From Chelativorans sp. Marseille-P2723 (GTDB taxonomy: Bacteria; Pseudomonadota; Alphaproteobacteria; Rhizobiales; Rhizobiaceae), in NCBI RefSeq assembly GCF_902809845.1, contig NZ_CADDWI010000013.1, positions 434,001 to 498,000 of the forward strand: a stretch of 64,000 nucleotides of DNA, written 5' to 3'. Position numbers and translations under genes: made by a program. Below, in pieces: positions 10,152-61,260 of this stretch (position 1 is its first letter; every line of letters begins with the position of its first letter). The notes below the pieces were generated by a model, which had not been told where the DNA came from, searched no databases, and worked only from the letters and a program-made list of their open reading frames with translations.

Positions 10152-10423
10152 TTCATGTCTCGTGTTTCAACTCTCATCTCTTCAACGGGAAAAACGTTAC
10201 CGGGGGAAGGACGTTCCGTTAGGGGGCTCGATGACGGCGGGTCTTCGGCAACAGGGTAAAATTTGTATAAATTTTGCTTTATCGCGGCGCACTGTTTCTT
10301 AGCGTTTCGCGGCCCAACCTTTGCTTAACAATGCCCATATCGGTTTTATTAACCTTAATTTGACGTTTCCCTGATCATTGTCGCTCCAGTTTGCGGTGCA
10401 ACCGCATGCGAGGGGGCGCACGG
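10152..10423 (+). promoter_or_regulatory. AT-rich promoter/leader region of the cpa pilus operon
   Basis: A 272-base region without a gene. It is notably AT-rich from about 10250 to 10375 against GC-rich surroundings, which fits the promoter of the pilus operon. A TATAAA box occurs near 10267, and TTAACC with an adjacent TTAA occurs at 10349-10358, resembling CtrA half-sites. The exact start of transcription cannot be fixed by eye. GAGGGGG precedes the cpaB ATG. Confidence 0.4.
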
Positions 10424-11239
10424 ATGAACAAATCCCGCATCATTATTCTGGGCGTTGCGGTCGCCGCCGCTATCGGCGCCGGCTATATGGCCAAGAACCT
10501 CGTCGCTGCAGAGCCGCAGCAGGTAATCATTGAAGCCCAGCCTGCCGAACCCGCCATGGAACTGGCGGAGGTGCTTATCGTAACGCGCGATGTGCCGCTG
10601 GGCGAACCCGTGGGAAATGCAACAGGGTGGCAGGCTTGGCCTGCGGGTTCCGTCAACAGCACCTTTATCACCCGTGAACAAGAGCCTGATGCGATCGAGG
10701 AGTTGAAGAACGCGGCCGCCAAAGTGTCACTTTATGCGGGAGAGCCCCTCAAGCGCTCGAAACTGATCGGTGAAGGACAGAGCCTGATGTCGGCGATCCT
10801 TCCTCCGGGAAAGCGTGCCGTGGCAACGCACATTGCGGCTGCCACTTCCGCAGGCGGCTTCATCCTGCCGGGAGACTATGTGGATGTCATTATCACGCGC
10901 CGCTCCGACACTGCATCCACTCCCAGCGGCTACATCACCGAGACGATCCTGGAGAACATCCGTGTTCTTGCGATTGACCAGACGATCCATGAGGACGAGG
11001 AAGGCCGCCGGGTAAAAGTCGGAGAGACAGCTACACTGGAGCTAACCCCGGAGCAGGCTGAAGTCATTACTGCAGCTCAGCAAATGGCCGACCGGCTGAC
11101 GCTTTCCTTGCGGTCGATTGCCGATGTCAGCGAAGAGCCCGTGAATCAGGGATCATATCTCGTCACCGGTTCCGGACGCGGCAACAGCATACGCCTTATA
11201 CGTTCAGGCGAGGTCACGATTGTGGGGACGCGTAGATGA
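10424..11239 (+). CDS. cpaB: Flp/Tad pilus assembly protein CpaB (RcpC)
   Basis: A 271-residue periplasmic protein with one N-terminal membrane anchor (IIILGVAVAAAIGAGYMA) and an SAF domain (about residues 45-115: VLIVTRDVPLGEPVG, YAGEPLKRSKL). A CpaB/RcpC domain follows (ILPPGKRAVATHI, GGFILPGDYVDVIIT). The start at 10424 is favoured by GAGGGGGCG upstream and by the compact membrane anchor. It is the first gene of cpaBCDEF-tadBC and overlaps cpaC by four bases. CpaB is thought to stabilise the secretin. The pilin and prepilin-peptidase genes usually found upstream are not in this window. Confidence 0.93.
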   Translation: MNKSRIIILGVAVAAAIGAGYMAKNLVAAEPQQVIIEAQPAEPAMELAEVLIVTRDVPLGEPVGNATGWQAWPAGSVNSTFITREQEPDAIEELKNAAAKVSLYAGEPLKRSKLIGEGQSLMSAILPPGKRAVATHIAAATSAGGFILPGDYVDVIITRRSDTASTPSGYITETILENIRVLAIDQTIHEDEEGRRVKVGETATLELTPEQAEVITAAQQMADRLTLSLRSIADVSEEPVNQGSYLVTGSGRGNSIRLIRSGEVTIVGTRR

Positions 11240-12777
11240 ACACAAGGCCGGACCTTCGCAGAGGAAGAATGGCAAGCGCCTTTATGATTGCATGGGCGAG
11301 CCTTCTTGCCTTGGCCGCTCCGGCAGGCATTCCCATGCTGGCAAAGGCCGCTCATGCAGAGGGCATCATCCAAGCGCGTGGCGCCGGGCTGCAACGCATA
11401 AAGCTGGGGCTCAACAAGTCACTCGTGATCGACCTGCCCCACGACGCCTATGACATACTCGTCGCAAACCCGGCGGTTGCGGATGCCATTACCCGCACGG
11501 CCCGCCGCATCTATCTGTTTGGCAAGCAGGTGGGCCAGACCAACATTTTCGTCTTTGGCTCCAATGGCGAGCAGATTGCCAGTCTCGATGTGGAGGTGGA
11601 GCGCGATGTTGCCGGCCTTGAAGAACACCTGAAGCGATTCATTCCCAACTCGAACATCCAGGTTGAACTCATAAACGACAATGTTGTGCTGACGGGCACT
11701 GTGGAGACCCCTCTCGACGCTTCCCGCGCCGCACAGCTTGCGACAATCTTCGTCACAGGCGGCGAAGCGACGACGGGACAATATTCGCAGACCGCGGCAG
11801 CCCCTACCGATGGTGGCGGCGTCGCCATCAACAATCCCGATGCGGAACGTCGGGTAAGCCGCGTCGTCAACATGCTCCAGATCGTCGGTGAGGATCAGGT
11901 AACGCTAAAGGTCACAGTCGCCGAAGTCAGCCGGTCTGTAATGAAGCAGCTCGGCGTGAACATGATCGGCTCCGGCAGCGTGGACGGAATAAGGTGGGGC
12001 GCGATTGTCGACAACTTTGCCGGGCTTGGAACGCCGCTCGCCAATTCCGGCGTCGGTGTCACGGGTTCGACGCTGGATGCTTTTCTTAATGCCATGGAGC
12101 AAGCCGGGGTGATGAAGACCCTTGCAGAGCCGACCCTTACGGCGGTCTCGGGGGAGAAGGCGACCTTCCGCGTTGGCGGCGAGTTCAATATCGCCCGCAA
12201 TCAGAAGGTGGACGAAGACAGCAATTCGATCACCTACGAGATCGAGCAGATCGATTACGGCATAGGGCTCGAATTCCAGCCGGTGGTTCTGTCGCCTGGC
12301 CGCATCAGCCTGAAGATCAGGACCCAGGTCTCTGAGCCTACGGCCGACGGATCGATTTCTCTTTCGAGCGGCAGGCGGAATCCGCCCGGCATGAACGTGA
12401 TTTCCATTCGCAAGCGGTTGGCTGACACGACGGTGGAGCTTCCCTCCGGCGGTTCGATGATGATTGCGGGGCTTGTCAGGGACGATGTCAGGCAGGTCAT
12501 CAACAGCGTGCCCGGCATCTCCAGGATCCCCGTACTGGGCACATTGTTCCGCAGCCGTTCCTTCGAGCGGAACGAGACGGAACTTGTCATCATCGTCACA
12601 CCCTATCTGGCGCGCCCTGTCGCGCGCACTGCCCTTGCAAAGCCCGACGACAACTTCAACCCTCCCAGCGACGGCGCCGGCGTGTTCCTGGGACGCGTTA
12701 ACCGCGTCTTCGGAGCAATGAAGACCGATCTGCCAAACGGACGCTATCACGGCGTCGTGGGCTATATCTACAAGTGA
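11236..12777 (+). CDS. cpaC: Tad pilus secretin CpaC (RcpA)
   Basis: A 513-residue outer-membrane secretin. The N-terminus has a signal peptide ending near AKAAHAEG. An N-terminal BON/N-domain region (KSLVIDLPHDAYDILVANP, QTNIFVFGSNGEQI) leads into the secretin core (QVTLKVTVAEVSRSVMKQLG through VPGISRIPVLGTLFRS). The latter block is the conserved secretin signature near residues 425-445. It forms the multimeric pore through which the pilus passes. ATGA overlap with cpaB indicates coupling. Confidence 0.95.
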   Translation: MNTRPDLRRGRMASAFMIAWASLLALAAPAGIPMLAKAAHAEGIIQARGAGLQRIKLGLNKSLVIDLPHDAYDILVANPAVADAITRTARRIYLFGKQVGQTNIFVFGSNGEQIASLDVEVERDVAGLEEHLKRFIPNSNIQVELINDNVVLTGTVETPLDASRAAQLATIFVTGGEATTGQYSQTAAAPTDGGGVAINNPDAERRVSRVVNMLQIVGEDQVTLKVTVAEVSRSVMKQLGVNMIGSGSVDGIRWGAIVDNFAGLGTPLANSGVGVTGSTLDAFLNAMEQAGVMKTLAEPTLTAVSGEKATFRVGGEFNIARNQKVDEDSNSITYEIEQIDYGIGLEFQPVVLSPGRISLKIRTQVSEPTADGSISLSSGRRNPPGMNVISIRKRLADTTVELPSGGSMMIAGLVRDDVRQVINSVPGISRIPVLGTLFRSRSFERNETELVIIVTPYLARPVARTALAKPDDNFNPPSDGAGVFLGRVNRVFGAMKTDLPNGRYHGVVGYIYK

Positions 12778-12787
12778 CGGAACGGCC

Positions 12788-13468
12788 ATGACCACACCAC
12801 GGATGAAATGGATGGCAGCGGTTGTGGCAGTGGCAGGCGTTCTTGCAGGCTGCACCCACCGAGACTCGGTCATTGTCGGCGCTGTTCCGGACGATTACCG
12901 GACCAACCATCCGATCGTACTGACGGAGGGGGAGGAGGTGCTGGATATTCCGGTCGGAATCCTTTCCTATCGCCTCAGCGGGCAGCAGGAGGCTGCGATC
13001 GCCGGCTTCATGGACAATTATGGCGAAAGCGGCAAATCCGTCGTCACTATTCTCGTGCCGGACGGCGCAGCCAATTCACCCGCAGCGGCGAGCGTCTCCC
13101 GCGAGATGGCAACTTCCCTCAGAAAGCACGGCGTGCCCCAGGGCTACGTCCAGATCCTCGCTTACCAGGCTTCTCCGGCAGATGTTGCACCGATAAGGCT
13201 GACCTTTTCGCGCCTGAAGGCGACGGTCGGGCCATGCGGCCGATGGCCGGCCGATCTTACGGAGAACTATGAGAACCGCCACTACGCCAATTTCGGCTGC
13301 GCCTATCAGAACAATCTCGCCGCCCAGGTCGCCAATCCGATGGATTTACTCGGGCCGCGCAAGATGACGACCATCGACGCGGAGAACAGGGGCCACGCCA
13401 TCAACGATTACAAGAACCGCAGGATTTCCGAATCGTTCTGGGAAAATAGCGAAGTCTTCTATGACTAG
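12788..13468 (+). CDS. cpaD: Pilus assembly lipoprotein CpaD
   Basis: A 226-residue protein with a lipoprotein signal (VVAVAGVLAGC; lipobox LAGC, lipidated Cys near residue 22). The CpaD domain has the typical C-terminal block FGCAYQNNLAAQVANPMDL, seen near residues 175-195. It acts at the outer membrane with the CpaC secretin. It starts 10 bases after cpaC in the same operon. Confidence 0.93.
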   Translation: MTTPRMKWMAAVVAVAGVLAGCTHRDSVIVGAVPDDYRTNHPIVLTEGEEVLDIPVGILSYRLSGQQEAAIAGFMDNYGESGKSVVTILVPDGAANSPAAASVSREMATSLRKHGVPQGYVQILAYQASPADVAPIRLTFSRLKATVGPCGRWPADLTENYENRHYANFGCAYQNNLAAQVANPMDLLGPRKMTTIDAENRGHAINDYKNRRISESFWENSEVFYD

Positions 13469-13483
13469 TACTGCAGGCGCTCC

Positions 13484-14764
13484 ATGACCAATCTGGCTTA
13501 TAAGACTGAGCATACCTTCAACTGGAAAGAGGAAAGCGCAAGCGCAGCTCTCCAGTCATTACGCCCTTTGCCTCGCATTTCTATTCAGGTGTTCTGCGAG
13601 ACGGCCCCCGTGGCCGAAGCGATCGAGAAGGCTGGCGCGGACCGGCGCATGGCCAAGACGCATGTGAAGATGCACATGGGCGGAATTTCGGCGGCTATCG
13701 AATATTATCAGTCCGCCGCCACGCCAAATCTCATTATCCTGGAATCGCGTACCGAGCCTGGGGAACTGATTGATTCGCTCAATCAACTGGCCGAGGTCTG
13801 CGACGCCGGTACGAAGGTCGTGGTGATTGGCCATTACAACGACGTCTGGCTCTATCGTGAGCTTATCCGCACGGGCATATCCGAATATGTGGTGGCACCG
13901 GTCTCCATGCCGGATATTGTTGGCGTGATCGCCGGCATCTTCACCGATCCTAGCGCCGGCCCTATAGGCAAAGCGCTGGCCTTCGTCGGGGGGAAGGGGG
14001 GGGTCGGTTCTTCCACACTCGCGCACAACGCCGGGTGGGCCATGTCAAAACTGTTCGAGAGCGAGGTGATGGTTGTCGACCTCGACCTGCCCTTCGGCAC
14101 CGCAAATATCAATTTCGATCAGGACCCTCCGCAGGGCATCGCCGAGGCGGTCTTTGCACCGGAGCGCCTTGACGAGGTCTATCTTGACCGGCTTCTTGCG
14201 CAATGTGCCGAAGGCCTCTCTCTGCTGGCCGCGCCCTCGACGCTCGACCGCGTCTATGATTTCGATGCGGAAGCGTTTGTTCATATCATCGATACTGCGC
14301 AGCGCACCGCGCCGGTGGTAGTGCTCGACGTGCCGCATTTGTGGACGAGCTGGACCAAGACCACGCTCGCGCGGGCAGATGATATCGTGCTCACCGTCAC
14401 GCCGGAACTCGCCAATTTGCGCAATGCGAAGAATCTGATCGATACGCTGCGCAAGCTCAGGCCGAATGACGATCCTCCCCGGTTGATCATCAACCAGACG
14501 AACGTCCCGAAGCGGCCCGAGATCGGCGTGGATGATTTCGCCGATGCGCTGGGGCTCGTGCCCCTTGCAGTCATCCCCTTCGAACCGCAGCTTTTCGGCA
14601 AAGCCGCCAATAGCGGCCGCATGCTCGGCGAAACGGACGCCAACCACCCCATCGTCCAGGCGATCAACGACATGGCGCATGTGCTGACCGGCCGCCGCGA
14701 GATCAGGCAGAAAAAGAAGATCGGCCTCGGTGCGCTTTTCGGCCGTCTGGGCAGGAGGAAGTAG
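13484..14764 (+). CDS. cpaE: Pilus assembly/localisation ATPase CpaE (TadZ)
   Basis: A 426-residue MinD/ParA-like ATPase with an N-terminal receiver-like domain (about 30-150: ISEYVVAPVSMPDIV). The P-loop domain carries the deviant Walker A GGKGGVGSSTLAHN near residue 170 and a Walker A' aspartate in VVDLDLPFGTAN. Lys and Arg clusters end the protein (RQKKKIGLG...GRRK). CpaE/TadZ positions the pilus machine at the cell pole. It follows cpaD after 15 bases and ends just upstream of the cpaF start region. Confidence 0.94.
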   Translation: MTNLAYKTEHTFNWKEESASAALQSLRPLPRISIQVFCETAPVAEAIEKAGADRRMAKTHVKMHMGGISAAIEYYQSAATPNLIILESRTEPGELIDSLNQLAEVCDAGTKVVVIGHYNDVWLYRELIRTGISEYVVAPVSMPDIVGVIAGIFTDPSAGPIGKALAFVGGKGGVGSSTLAHNAGWAMSKLFESEVMVVDLDLPFGTANINFDQDPPQGIAEAVFAPERLDEVYLDRLLAQCAEGLSLLAAPSTLDRVYDFDAEAFVHIIDTAQRTAPVVVLDVPHLWTSWTKTTLARADDIVLTVTPELANLRNAKNLIDTLRKLRPNDDPPRLIINQTNVPKRPEIGVDDFADALGLVPLAVIPFEPQLFGKAANSGRMLGETDANHPIVQAINDMAHVLTGRREIRQKKKIGLGALFGRLGRRK

Positions 14765-14770
14765 ACGGCC

Positions 14771-16317
14771 ATGTTCGGCAGGAGAAACGCCGGCCCGACA
14801 GGAGGTGGATTGCAGAGGCCCGCTGCACCGGTCGCTTCGTCCCGCGATAATGACGAAGCGCTGCTCCCGCCGGATCGCCCGGCGCCGGCCCAGGCGGATC
14901 TGCCTTCGGCGCCCTTTCCGCCGGCGCCGGATACACCTCGGCGCCCTTTCCGCCGGCGCCGGATACACCGCGCCGAGCCGCTTCGCCGGAGCGTACCGCG
15001 CGAGCAGCATTCTCGCATGGTGTCCGCGAGCACACCGAAGACTATTACGACACAAAGAGTCAGGTCTTCTCCGCTTTGATCGACACGATTGACCTATCGC
15101 AGCTTGCAAGGCTCGATGCCGACAGCGCGCGCGAAGAAATCCGTGACATCGTCAATGACATCATCGCCATCAAGAACTTCGCGATGTCTATTGCCGAGCA
15201 GGAGGAACTGCTCGACGATATCTGCAATGACGTTCTCGGCTACGGCCCCTTGGAGCCGCTTCTTGCCCGCGACGAGATCGCTGACATCATGGTGAACGGG
15301 GCGCGCAACGTCTATATCGAGGTGCAAGGCAAGGTCGAGCAGACCAATGTTCGCTTCCGCGACAACCAGCAGCTTCTCAACATCTGCCAGCGCATCGTCA
15401 GCCAGGTGGGCCGCAGGGTCGACGAGTCGAGCCCGATCTGCGACGCGCGTCTGCCGGACGGCTCGCGCGTTAACGTGATCGCGCCGCCGCTGGCCATTGA
15501 TGGTCCCTCCCTCACTATCCGGAAGTTCCGGAAGGACAAGCTGACGCTGGATCAGCTTGTTCGATTCGGCGCCATCTCGCCGGAAGGCGCAGAGCTTCTC
15601 AAGATCATCGGCCGGGTACGCTGCAACATTCTCATCTCGGGAGGTACTGGTTCCGGCAAGACCACCCTCCTCAATTGCCTGACCAGGTTCATCGACGCAG
15701 ACGAGCGCATCATCACCTGTGAGGATTCCGCGGAGCTGCAACTACAGCAGCCCCATGTCGTCCGCCTGGAGACGCGCCCTCCCAATCTGGAAGGGGAAGG
15801 CGAGGTGACGATGCGTGATCTCGTGCGCAACTGCCTGCGCATGAGGCCGGAACGCATCATTGTCGGCGAGGTGCGCGGCCCTGAAGTCTTCGACCTGCTA
15901 CAGGCCATGAATACCGGCCATGACGGTTCCATGGGAACGATCCATTCCAACAGCCCGCGCGAGTGCCTCAACCGAATTGAATCGATGATGGCAATGGGCG
16001 GGTTCCAGCTCCCGCCGCGCACGGTGCGCGAAATCATCGTCGGCTCCGTGGACGTCATCATCCAGGCCGCCCGCCTGCGCGATGGCTCGCGCCGCATCAC
16101 GCACATCACGGAGGTGGTAGGAATGGAGGGCGACGTGATTATCACGCAGGATCTGATGCTCTTCGACATACGGGGGGAAGATACAAGTGGGCACATCCTT
16201 GGCCGGCATGTCTCCACCGGAATCGGGCGGCCCGCCTTCTGGGAGCGCGCGCGCTATTACGGCGAGGAGGCAAGGTTGGCCTCGGTGCTGGATGCGATGG
16301 AGAAAAAGTCGGATTGA
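14771..16317 (+). pseudogene. cpaF: Pilus assembly ATPase CpaF (TadA) with frameshifting 32-bp duplication
   Basis: Hexameric type II/IV secretion ATPase that powers pilin assembly. The catalytic part reads open from 15076 to 16317 (413 codons), with Walker [15 protein letters not shown], the Asp and His boxes and [19 protein letters not shown]. The natural start is the ATG at 14771 (MFGRRNAGP), but that frame hits TGA at 15077-15079 because a perfect 32-bp tandem duplication (14906-14937, 14938-14969) shifts it. Removing one copy gives a continuous 504-residue CpaF. The catalytic frame has no ATG or GTG before 15076. Its first possible start there is a TTG that overlaps the upstream stop (TTGA), so reinitiation could yield an N-truncated but catalytically complete protein. 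The alternative is an assembly error. Confidence 0.85.
14906..14969. repeat. Perfect 32-bp tandem duplication inside cpaF
   Basis: Two identical, directly adjacent 32-base copies (14906-14937 and 14938-14969) in the Pro/Ala-rich low-complexity N-terminal part of cpaF. Identity stops exactly at the unit edges: the flanking bases differ. As 32 is not a multiple of three, the second copy shifts the frame. Loss or gain of one unit by slippage would switch the full-length frame on or off. Confidence 0.95.
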
Positions 16318-17330
16318 TGTTTGGCATGGACCTGACGCTTCTTGGCTTCATAGTGCTGGCGGCTGCAAGCGCCGGGGCGGTCGCCTATGCGCTGCTGTTC
16401 AACTCGCTGGCGGAAGAGAAGAAGGCGGAGCGACGGCTGGAGACGATCCGCAACGCCGAAACCGACCGGAACCTTGCACGCGACGCTCGCGACAGGGCGG
16501 CCGAGGCGGCGAAGCGGCGCAAGTCGATCCAGGAATCCTTGAATGATCTGGATGCCAAGCAGAAGGACCGCGACCGCTATATTCACCGGCCGCCGCTGAA
16601 GGTGCAGCTTCGCCAGGCCGGCGTCGAGATGAGCATGCGCCGGTTTTATGTCTATTCAGGAGTTTGCGGCCTGTCCCTGGCCCTATTCGCATTGCTCGCA
16701 GGAGCGCCGCTCCTTGCAGCGCTTGGGGCGCTGTTGGCCGGCACCTTCGGCGTGCCCCGCTGGTTCGTCGCCTTCCTGCGCAAGCGGCGGATAAAGGCGT
16801 TTCTGGAAGAGTTTCCCAACGCGTTGGACATCATCGTGCGCGCCGTGAAATCAGGGCTGCCGCTCAACGACGCGGTCCGCATGATTGCTAGTGAATCCAA
16901 TGAGCCGGTACGCACTGAGTTCCGCCGCCTGGTCGAGGCTCAGCATGTTGGCCTTCCCATGGCCGACGCTGCCCTGCGCATGGCCGAGACCATGCCCTGC
17001 GCGGAAGCCAACTTCTTCGGCATCGTCATCCAGATTCAGAGCCAGGCGGGCGGAAACCTTTCCGAAGCGCTAGGCAACCTCTCCCGCGTTCTGCGCGAGC
17101 GCAAGAAGATGAAGGCGAAGGTGCAGGCTCTTTCTATGGAAGCTAAAGCATCCGCAGCCATTATCGGGGCCCTTCCGGTAGTCGTGGCCTTTCTGGTTTT
17201 CCTCACTACGCCCGGCTATATCATGCCGCTTTTTACTACAAGCGTCGGCCATCTCATCCTCGGCGTCTCCGCTATCTGGATGTCGATCGGCATCTTCATG
17301 ATGCGTCAGATGATCAATTTCGAGGTGTAG
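16317..17330 (+). CDS. tadB: Pilus inner-membrane platform protein TadB
   Basis: A 337-residue integral membrane protein of the GspF/T2SSF fold. The ATG at 16317 overlaps the cpaF stop (TGATG). After an N-terminal membrane segment and a long charged helical region (residues about 30-90), there are membrane segments near 110-150 and at the C-terminus (ALPVVVAFLVFLTTP, LILGVSAIWMSIGIF). The T2SSF domain contains ALDIIVRAVKSGLPLNDAV and ANFFGIVIQIQSQAGGNLSEAL, typical of TadB. It forms the base of the pilus with TadC. Confidence 0.94.
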   Translation: MFGMDLTLLGFIVLAAASAGAVAYALLFNSLAEEKKAERRLETIRNAETDRNLARDARDRAAEAAKRRKSIQESLNDLDAKQKDRDRYIHRPPLKVQLRQAGVEMSMRRFYVYSGVCGLSLALFALLAGAPLLAALGALLAGTFGVPRWFVAFLRKRRIKAFLEEFPNALDIIVRAVKSGLPLNDAVRMIASESNEPVRTEFRRLVEAQHVGLPMADAALRMAETMPCAEANFFGIVIQIQSQAGGNLSEALGNLSRVLRERKKMKAKVQALSMEAKASAAIIGALPVVVAFLVFLTTPGYIMPLFTTSVGHLILGVSAIWMSIGIFMMRQMINFEV

Positions 17331-17336
17331 CGCGAA

Positions 17337-18332
17337 ATGGCCGGGAATGTCGTCGATACGCTTACCGATCCCGGCTTTCTCATCGCGCTTCTCGTGTCGA
17401 TCGCGGTCTTTGCCACCATTTTCACCATCATTCCCATAGGCGGCGGAGACACGCTGAGAGCGCGAATGAAAGCTGTTGCGCTGGAGCGGGACGAATTGAG
17501 AGCAAAGCAGCGCGCGCGCCTTGCCGCTGAAGCCGACCGGCGCCGCCGCACGGGCCTGCGCCAGGACGACGCAGCGCACATCCGAAGCATTGTCGACCGG
17601 CTGGATCTGCGTCGGGCGCTCGCCGACGAGGCGACGGCGTCCAAGCTCAGAAACGCTGGCTTCCGCGGCGATCGCCCGTTGACGAAGTTCCTCTTCTTCC
17701 GTCTCGTTCTGCCCTTCGCAGGGTTGGCGTTAGGCGCCTTCTATGTCTTCGTTCTCGACGCACTTCCCGGGCAGCCTCTCGTCATCCGCCTCTTCATCTG
17801 CATACTGGCCGCCTATGCCGGCTTCTATGCGCCGGTACTTTACGTTTCCAACAAGGCAACTCGGCGCAAGCAATCGATACAGAACGCGTGGCCGGACGCA
17901 CTGGATCTTCTCTTGATATGTGTGGAGTCCGGCATCTCCGTGGAGGCCGCTTTCCGCCGGGTTGCAGATGAGATTGGCACACAATCCATTGCGTTGGCGG
18001 AGGAATTCGTTCTGACGACGGCCGAACTCTCGTTCCTTCAGGAGCGACGGCAAGCGTATGAGAACCTTGCTAGCCGCACGGGCGTGGAGGCGGTCAAGAG
18101 CGTTACCCAGGCTCTCATTCAGGCCGAACGTTACGGTACGCCCGTCGGTCAGGCGCTGCGGGTGCTTGCCAATGAAAGCCGCGATCAGCGCATGAACGAG
18201 GCGGAGAAGAAGGCGGCGGCCCTGCCGCCGAAGCTGACCGTACCGATGATCCTTTTCTTCCTTCCGGTCCTCTTTGCGGTCATTCTCGGTCCTGCCGGAA
18301 TTCAGCTCACCCAGAATGGCGTCATGAATTAG
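17337..18332 (+). CDS. tadC: Pilus inner-membrane platform protein TadC
   Basis: A 331-residue T2SSF-domain membrane protein starting six bases after tadB. It has a membrane segment at residues 13-35, a basic cytoplasmic stretch, two central segments (residues about 120-165) and a C-terminal segment (VPMILFFLPVLFAVILGPAG). The conserved cytoplasmic part reads AWPDALDLLLICVESGISVEAAF. It is the last pilus gene seen; tadD and the pilin genes are absent here. Its stop abuts the convergent stop of the next gene with no spacing. Confidence 0.93.
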   Translation: MAGNVVDTLTDPGFLIALLVSIAVFATIFTIIPIGGGDTLRARMKAVALERDELRAKQRARLAAEADRRRRTGLRQDDAAHIRSIVDRLDLRRALADEATASKLRNAGFRGDRPLTKFLFFRLVLPFAGLALGAFYVFVLDALPGQPLVIRLFICILAAYAGFYAPVLYVSNKATRRKQSIQNAWPDALDLLLICVESGISVEAAFRRVADEIGTQSIALAEEFVLTTAELSFLQERRQAYENLASRTGVEAVKSVTQALIQAERYGTPVGQALRVLANESRDQRMNEAEKKAAALPPKLTVPMILFFLPVLFAVILGPAGIQLTQNGVMN

Positions 18333-58693: not shown

Positions 58694-61260
58694 CTGATAC
58701 GAAAACTGGTGACGACAAGACGCTGAGCGTCAACCCGAAGAAGACGCTGACGCTCAAGCGGCCGGAACAAGGCACGGTGCGCCAGAACTTTTCGCATGGG
58801 CGTACCAAGGCTGTCGTCGTGGAGACGAAGAAGCGGAAGTTCTTGCGGCCCGATGAACGTGCGGAGCCTGTGGCGCCGTCGCGCCCGAAGCCGGCCGCCG
58901 CTCCTGCTCCCGCGCCTGCGCCACAGCAGCAACAAAGGCGGCCACGCCCGCAGCAATCTGCTGCTCGCTCCGGCGTCGTGCTTAATGAGCTCTCTTCGGA
59001 CGAGATCGAGGCTCGCCGCCGGGCGCTGCAGGATGCCAAGCTGCGCGAGGCCGAGGAGCGCAAGAGGGCAGCCGAAGAGGCTGAGCGCCGAGCCGAGGAA
59101 GAAGCCCGGCGTGAGCGCGAGCGCGAGGAATCTGCTCGCCGCCAGGCCGAGGAAGAAGCCCGCGTGAAGGCTGAGGCCGAGGCCCGACAGCGCGCCGAGG
59201 AAGAAGCCCGACGCCGTGCGGCGCCGGCACAACCGGAGCCGGCCGTCGCGGCCAAGGAGATCGACGACGAGGAGGAAGAGGCGAAGGGCCGTAGCGTGCC
59301 AGGAAGGCGTGGCGCGGTGAAAGCCGAAGCCCCTCCGCGTCCGGCCAAGCCGCGTACCGACGAACAGCGCCGCCGCGGGAAGCTGACGCTCAACTCTGCG
59401 CTGTCTGACGACGAGGGTGCGCGTGGCCGCTCTCTCTCGTCCATGCGCCGCAGGCAGGAAAAGTTCAAGCGTGCAATGCATCAGGAGCCGCGTGAGAAGG
59501 TTTCGCGCGAAGTGGTGCTGCCGGAGACCATCACCATCCAGGAGCTTGCAAGCCGCATGGCCGAGCGTTCGGTGGATGTGGTGAAATACTTCATGAAGCA
59601 GGGCCAGATGATCAAACCTGGCGACGTGATCGATGCGGATACGGCGGAGCTGGTCGCGGTCGAGTTCGGCCATACGGTCAAGCGCGTTGCCGAATCGGAT
59701 GTCGAGGAGGGGCTGTTCGATATTGAGGACCGTCCCGAGGATACGCAGTCGCGACCACCGGTCGTCACCATCATGGGCCACGTCGACCATGGCAAGACGT
59801 CTCTGCTTGATGCGCTTCGCAAAGCTAATGTCGCGGCTGGCGAGGCCGGCGGCATCACCCAGCATATCGGCGCTTATCAGGTGGAGCATGAAGGCAATAC
59901 GATCACCTTCATCGATACGCCTGGACACGCCGCATTTACCGCAATGCGCGCCCGCGGCGCACAGGCGACCGATATCGCCATCCTCGTGGTTGCGGCAGAC
60001 GACAGCGTGATGCCGCAGACGGTCGAGTCCATCAACCATGCCAAGGCGGCGAACGTGCCGATCATCGTGGCGATCAACAAGGTGGACAAGCCGGAGGCTA
60101 ATCCGCAGAAGGTTCGCACCGAGCTCCTCCAGCATGACGTGTTCGTGGAATCTATGGGAGGCGATGTGCTTGACGTTGAGATTTCAGCTCTCAAGAGCAT
60201 CAATCTCGACAAGCTACTCGAAGCTGTCCTGCTTCAGGCAGAAATTCTGGAACTCAAGGCGAACCCGAACCGCACGGCAGAGGGTGTCATTATCGAGGCC
60301 AAGCTCGATCGCGGCCGCGGCCCGGTTGCCACCATGCTCGTACAGGCCGGGACGCTCAGCCCGGGCGACATCCTCGTTGCCGGCAATGAGTGGGGGCGCG
60401 TACGTGCGCTCATCAACGATCGTGGCGAGCAGATCAAGTCTGCCGGCCCATCCACGCCAGTGGAGGTGCTGGGCCTTCAGGGAACGCCGCAGGCGGGCGA
60501 CCGCTTTGCGGTGACGGATACAGAAGCCCGGGCACGCGAAATCTCCGAATACCGCCAGCGCAAGGCGCGCGAGAAGGCGGTGGCCCGCCAGGCAGGCCAG
60601 CGCGGCTCGCTGGAGCAGATGATGTCTCAGCTCCAGACATCGGGCGTGAAGGAATTTCCGCTCATCATCAAGGGTGACGTTCAGGGTTCCGTTGAGGCCA
60701 TTGTCAATGCGCTGGAGAAGCTCGGCACGGACGAGGTGCGCGCCCACATCGTCCATTCGGGCGCTGGCGCTATCACCGAGAGCGACGTTTCGCTGGCCGA
60801 GACCTCGAATGCGGCCATCATCGGCTTCAATGTCCGTGCCAACAAGCAGGCCCGGGATGCAGCCGAGCAGGCGGGTATCGAGATCCGCTACTACAACATC
60901 ATCTACGATCTCGTGGATGATATGAAGTCAGCCATGTCCGGCCTGCTTTCGCCAGAGCGGCGCGAGACTTTCCTGGGCAATGCCGAGATTCTGGAGGTCT
61001 TCAACATCACCAAGGTGGGCAAGGTTGCCGGCTGCCGCGTAACGGAAGGCAAGGTGGAGCGTGGTGCAGGCGTGCGCCTGATCCGTGACAACGTTGTGAT
61101 TCACGAAGGCAAGTTGAAGACCTTGAAGCGCTTCAAGGACGAGGTGGCGGAAGTGCCAGCCGGCCAGGAGTGCGGCATGGCCTTCGAGAATTACGAGGAC
61201 ATCCGCGTCGGCGACGTCATCGAGGCCTACCGTGTCGAGATGGTGACGCGCAGCCTGTAA
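58690..61260 (+). CDS. infB: Translation initiation factor IF-2
   Basis: An 856-residue GTPase. A long Glu/Arg/Ala-rich N-terminal coiled region (residues about 80-250) precedes the IF2-N motif ([21 protein letters not shown]). The G domain has G1 [11 protein letters not shown]3 DTPGHAAF and G4 NKVD. Domains II-IV include the fMet-tRNA-binding C-terminus ([36 protein letters not shown]). The ATG at 58690 overlaps the ylxR stop; longer in-frame extensions run over that gene and are rejected. Confidence 0.97.

Follow-up and report, generated by a model that had tools for sequence, protein, structure and literature searches.

The cpaF locus and its gene context

The window, a stretch of 64,000 nucleotides from Chelativorans sp. 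Marseille-P2723 (contig NZ_CADDWI010000013.1, positions 434,001 to 498,000), carries a tad gene cluster on its forward strand. In this cluster, cpaF is preceded by cpaB, a cpaC-like secretin gene, cpaD, and a cpaE-like gene (10391..14764) and followed by two genes coding for platform proteins with T2SSF domains (16314..18332), which we take to be tadB/cpaG and tadC/cpaH. Both groups of genes are unbroken in the list of open reading frames. Genes for pilin, prepilin peptidase, and TadE-like proteins are located apart from the cpaB-tadC cluster (C13:718038-721083, corresponding to L120:6038-9083), approximately 220 kb beyond the end of the window and 270 kb from cpaF. As these distant genes are also uninterrupted in the list of open reading frames, decay of the whole Tad system was rejected.

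The catalytic part of CpaF (15076..16317, forward strand) is uninterrupted and comprises most of the three-helix bundle, the N-terminal domain, and the ATPase domain. Its translation matches the T2SSE family (PF00437) with 219.8 bits against a cut-off of 24.9 and contains the P-loop GGTGSGKT. Residues 2-409 of this query align to residues 94-501 of Caulobacter crescentus CpaF (PDB 9e24, E 7.1e-214), and the alignments to the structures 8rjf and 8rkd gave E-values of 2.3e-214 and 2.5e-214, respectively. The locus differs from its Caulobacter counterpart in that the start and linker on the one hand and the catalytic part on the other are found in separate frames as sequenced. A compensating second cpaF was considered and rejected, since the other match in the genome of the strain is an ATPase of 38% identity; one PF00437 match below the cut-off is also present.

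What separates the two frames is a tandem duplication of 32 bp. Copy 1 (14906..14937, forward strand) and copy 2 (14938..14969, forward strand) are identical (TRF: 2.0 copies, 100%), and the array consists of exactly two copies. A perfect array of 64 bases is not a product of chance. As sequenced, the 5' part of the gene (14771..15079, forward strand) begins with MFGRR at ATG 14771, continues through an Ala/Pro-rich linker, and ends in an out-of-frame tail that is closed by TGA 15077-15079 after 102 amino acids. The catalytic frame is uninterrupted between 14854 and its stop, which ends at 16317. The peptide read from copy 1 in the start frame (ATG 14771) is identical to that read from copy 2 in the catalytic frame, as expected if one of the two copies is extra. 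As sequenced, no continuous frame runs from the MFG start through the gene in the window. The segment 14771-16317 spans 1547 nt, and removal of 32 nt leaves 505 codons including the stop. The initial annotation had described exact 32-bp copies that shift the frame of cpaF, and a continuous gene of 504 codons upon deletion of one copy, and both descriptions hold.

The same is true of the stop and start that it had placed at the junction of the two frames. The sole ATG, GTG, or TTG of the catalytic frame between 14854 and 15078, and hence the first possible start of this frame, is TTG 15076..15078 (forward strand), which overlaps the TGA closing the first frame. According to the alignment, this codon is situated at about residue 93, the next residue being aligned to residue 94 of Caulobacter CpaF.

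One conceivable way from the first frame into the second would be ribosomal -1 frameshifting. The heptamer C_CCT_TTC (14944..14950, forward strand) is a -1 slippery-type sequence in the frame of ATG 14771, from which a -1 shift would restore the catalytic frame, and a GC-rich hairpin lies downstream of it (14954-14959 / 14970-14975; the RNA of 14951-14985 folds with -16.2 kcal/mol). However, at least one such in-frame heptamer was obtained in 447 of 2000 shuffles, the spacer between heptamer and hairpin is only about 3 nt, and slippery heptamers of the C type are weak. The heptamer is thus probably fortuitous, and we consider frameshifting at this site extremely improbable.

cpaF in related genomes

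The genome of the strain comprises 3.77 Mb on 13 contigs, and 15 genomes of the same genus were among those searched. The sample of cpaF loci was drawn from the best 80 of 529 confirmed loci, the best matches in 61 genomes, the matches listed from 394 genomes, and 14 stretches chosen for short open frames. It amounted to 128 loci, 121 of them distinct and 126 from outside the strain. Six of the 121 distinct loci were left out, their cpaF being truncated at the 5' end by a contig boundary, which left 115 assessable. Closest among the matches listed was the locus of Chelativorans petroleitrophicus (L010), with 93% identity over the catalytic part.

An in-frame MFG start followed by one open frame was found in 112 of the 115 assessable distinct loci sampled. 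These intact loci code for the MFG start, a linker with a high content of Ala and Pro in the majority of them, and then a ..ALIDTIDLSQLA..-type motif, with 66-107 codons between the ATG and the alignment column of the window's TTG. None of the 126 sampled loci from outside the strain contained an exact tandem repeat (12-199 bp) within cpaF or immediately upstream of it.

This result bears on a reversible switch, one of the options of the initial annotation, in which slippage or recombination between the 32-bp copies would turn the Tad pilus on and off. Repeat-mediated phase variation is the hallmark of contingency loci, and cpaF resembles these in that a perfect tandem repeat in a gene for a surface structure alters the frame; the range of linker lengths in the 112 intact loci also indicates that a change in length is tolerated. 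In contrast to contingency loci, the array has two copies only, with zero junction homology, and a repeat of the kind that would mark a phase-variable gene does not recur in any of the 126 sampled loci from outside the strain. Furthermore, the same kind of duplication affects the metabolic genes hisZ and cydCD (see below), for which there is no obvious reason for switching. The comparison with relatives spoke against the switch, which we regard as highly improbable.

Broken frames were seen in three of the 115 assessable loci, namely the window, L047 (Mesorhizobium sp. L-8-3), and L136, a count that is not a rate because 14 loci, including L136, had been picked for their short open frames. L136 is 92% identical to a Mesorhizobium locus (L055), from which its linker differs by one base in the length of a homopolymer. 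In both L047 and L136, the break lies in the linker and is found without a tandem repeat. The short open frames of L124-L127 were rejected as cpaF breaks, as they are due to contig ends. In each of the three broken loci, the catalytic part is uninterrupted. The disordered linker of CpaF might accordingly be a recurrent site at which frame breaks are tolerated, and lineages might tune pilus retraction by losing or regaining the disordered N-terminus through indels, while internal starts or frameshifting would maintain some motor. We consider this very unlikely.

The same alignment was informative on the overlapping TTG, which encodes the Leu in the conserved motif ..SALIDTIDLSQLA... In 111 loci, the codon in this column was CTG 53 times, CTC 45 times, CTT nine times, and TTG four times; two of these four belong to the genome of the window itself, which leaves two TTG codons in 109 loci from elsewhere. 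A conserved start overlapping a stop, as in a termination-reinitiation pair, was thus not found in this column. Since this TTG specifies a conserved Leu for which other loci mostly use CTG or CTC, the TTGA overlap is a consequence of the frame shift and is not itself conserved. Nor was a strong ribosome-binding site (Shine-Dalgarno sequence) recognized by eye before TTG 15076. The rescue of cpaF by the overlapping stop and start, suggested in the initial annotation, consequently found no positive support.

Tandem duplications elsewhere in the assembly

We scanned 1,680,000 bases (44.5%) of the assembly of the strain for exact tandem duplications, allowing periods of 12-400 bp. The scan gave 20 matches at periods of at least 12 bp, nine of them with a period of at least 24 bp, a cut-off that was chosen after the hits had been seen. 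As a control, 1,520,787 bases from relatives were scanned (stretches of the genomes G011, G007, G015, G010, and G004 and the 80 loci L004-L083). Four matches were obtained, two of them with a period of at least 24 bp (48 bp x 2.56 copies and 60 bp x 2.07 copies), both periods being multiples of three. Matches with periods below 24 bp (11 of 20 in the strain, two of four in relatives) were dropped from the main count; short-period repeats need no artefact to explain them.

The nine long units measure 25, 27, 28, 32, 35, 38, 44, 48, and 49 bp, and each is present in about two exact copies. Within each of the nine pairs the copies are identical, with a junction homology of 0-3 bp (0 in cpaF). Eight of the nine units belong to the top 8.5% in GC content for their length. 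Five of the nine duplications come from 400 kb of sequence on contig C9. Genes are split by five of the nine, the genes affected being cpaF, hisZ, a nuoF-like gene, cydC, and cydD.

The gene hisZ is split by a duplication of 44 bp (C9:118764-118852, L163:18764-18852). A single NCBIfam model recognizes both halves, scoring 298 and 273 bits, and the 5' half, an open frame of 238 amino acids, has a single match in the genome of the strain (E ≤ 1e-20). The open frame measures 391-433 amino acids in all five relatives searched. A 49-bp duplication (C13:735606-735704, L148:606-704) splits the nuoF-like gene, presumably of the formate dehydrogenase beta type, both halves of which match TIGR01959. The open frame is 428 amino acids long, compared to 530, 690, and 607 amino acids in its three relatives of 93-96% identity; a second NuoF-like match in the same genome shows 46% identity only.

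Duplications of 28 bp (C9:462402-462458, L176:2402-2458) and 38 bp (C9:464115-464190, L176:4115-4190), 1.7 kb apart, split cydC and cydD, respectively. The assignment of the 5' parts is supported by NCBIfam, while the 3' parts were recognized by eye. The search for cydD in five relatives gave no match in one, matches of 25-27% identity in three, and a match of 61% identity with one TGA inside in G011; an intact close relative of cydD was not found among these five.

Four further two-copy duplications have units of 48, 27, 25, and 35 bp (L177:3013-3111, L177:15420-15476, L209:11312-11361, and L258:14736-14807, respectively). Reading frames are preserved by the 27- and 48-bp units, in genes that we take to code for arginine-deiminase-like and PPIase-like proteins, and a gene's stop codon falls within the 25-bp unit. 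Separately, an imperfect 24-bp tandem repeat was recorded in the window at 59144-59212 (2.9 copies, 68% matches).

The strain and its relatives differ modestly in these counts, a difference that speaks for an artefact without proving it. At periods of at least 24 bp, the 1.68 Mb of the strain contained nine duplications and the 1.52 Mb from relatives contained two (p = 0.047, with the cut-off set post hoc), and frame-splitting duplications number five and zero (p = 0.040). For a class of 24-50 bp and up to 2.15 copies, defined after seeing the hits, the counts are nine and zero (p = 0.003). Before the last 400 kb (contig C8) were added, the p-values were 0.030 for the count and 0.020 for frame splitting, so that C8 weakened both. 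With all periods of at least 12 bp included, 20 matches in the strain stand against four in relatives. The control is a weak stand-in for whole genomes in all these comparisons, because 723,261 of its bases (the 80 loci) represent one genomic region across many species.

Origin of the duplication

From the duplication and the split frame, the intact genes of relatives, and the similar duplications in the same assembly, we infer an origin in the assembly process. The second 32-bp copy in cpaF is most likely an assembly artefact and probably does not exist in the organism. Among the three options listed in the initial annotation, this one is supported best, with five of the nine duplications found in the assembly splitting genes, whereas no positive evidence was obtained for the switch, for the rescue at the TTGA, or for frameshifting. 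Qualitative points favor an artefact more than the counts do, because the copies are identical, the unit lengths show no preference for multiples of three, the units are GC-rich, and the sole hisZ match is hit. Unselected events would be expected to show such indifference to multiples of three, and a free-living strain should need hisZ. We consider an error in joining sequences likelier than so many fresh and perfect gene breaks. On the other side, unit lengths vary, five of the nine duplications are concentrated in 400 kb of C9, and the difference in rate is modest.

Short false tandem duplications are a known kind of error in draft assemblies. The duplications described here are like them in being exact two-copy units of less than 50 bp, mostly GC-rich, indifferent to frame, and several per assembly. 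Assembly or gap closing may have created several short perfect two-copy duplications, mostly at GC-rich places; for example, neighboring contig ends sharing a short unmerged overlap could have been joined end to end. Loss of read coverage would fit the GC-rich units. A fixed k-mer overlap (k-1 = 32) was rejected as the cause, given the unit lengths of 25-49 bp in the same assembly. Slippage driven by hairpins was rejected as a common cause as well: GC-matched windows folding equally well made up 4.8% for the cpaF unit and 25-95% for the other eight, which leaves GC content as the trait shared by the units. Structural assembly errors are addressed by NucBreak, according to the available text (PMC7035700). 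Judging by titles and opening abstract lines, none of the papers listed in searches for cpaF frameshifts and for assembly errors that produce false tandem duplications addressed the matter directly.

The alternative is that the duplication is real and recent, in which case cpaF would be broken, yielding a fragment of 102 amino acids and at best low amounts of an N-truncated motor by reinitiation at TTG 15076, with Tad piliation lost or weak. The two-copy sequence lies in the interior of a contig of 1.36 Mb, the catalytic part is uninterrupted, and both copies are identical, all of which agrees with a real and recent event. Studies on Caulobacter CpaF further suggest that some function may survive the loss of the N-terminus. 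In the available text of PMC11300603, residues 1-79 are disordered and residues 80-149 form a three-helix segment. A deletion of residues 1-78 left piliation near normal and extension preserved, with retraction lowered, and upon deletion of residues 1-146 phage infection was lost and the protein was not readily detected (PMC11300603). The layout given in the available text of PMC12019362 is a disordered N-terminus, a three-helix bundle, an N-terminal domain, and an ATPase domain; truncations at residues 66, 73, and 80 lowered extension and retraction equally, along with the protein level, and removal of the bundle as well abolished expression (PMC12019362).

Reinitiation at the TTG would remove the disordered N-terminus and, with the bundle taken to begin at residue 80, roughly 13 of the bundle's residues. 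Since the TTG (about residue 93) falls between the tolerated and the non-tolerated truncations of Caulobacter CpaF, a weak motor is conceivable, and the comparison suggests that a reinitiated CpaF would be a weak motor at best. However, hisZ, cydC, cydD, and the nuoF-like gene are likewise split by perfect duplications of similar length in this assembly, the TTG column is not conserved, and TTG 15076 lacks a strong Shine-Dalgarno sequence to the eye. A real break with a truncated motor is therefore judged unlikely.

If the duplication were real after all, the strain would be a natural test case for the disordered N-terminus of CpaF, the role of which in extension and retraction is described differently in the available texts of PMC11300603 and PMC12019362. 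If the second copy is an artefact, as we consider probable, the cpaF of the living strain is most likely an ordinary intact gene, as in its relatives. The assembly would then contain several perfect short duplications inside genes, and its annotation would wrongly imply the loss of the Tad motor, of a subunit for histidine synthesis, and of the CydDC exporter.
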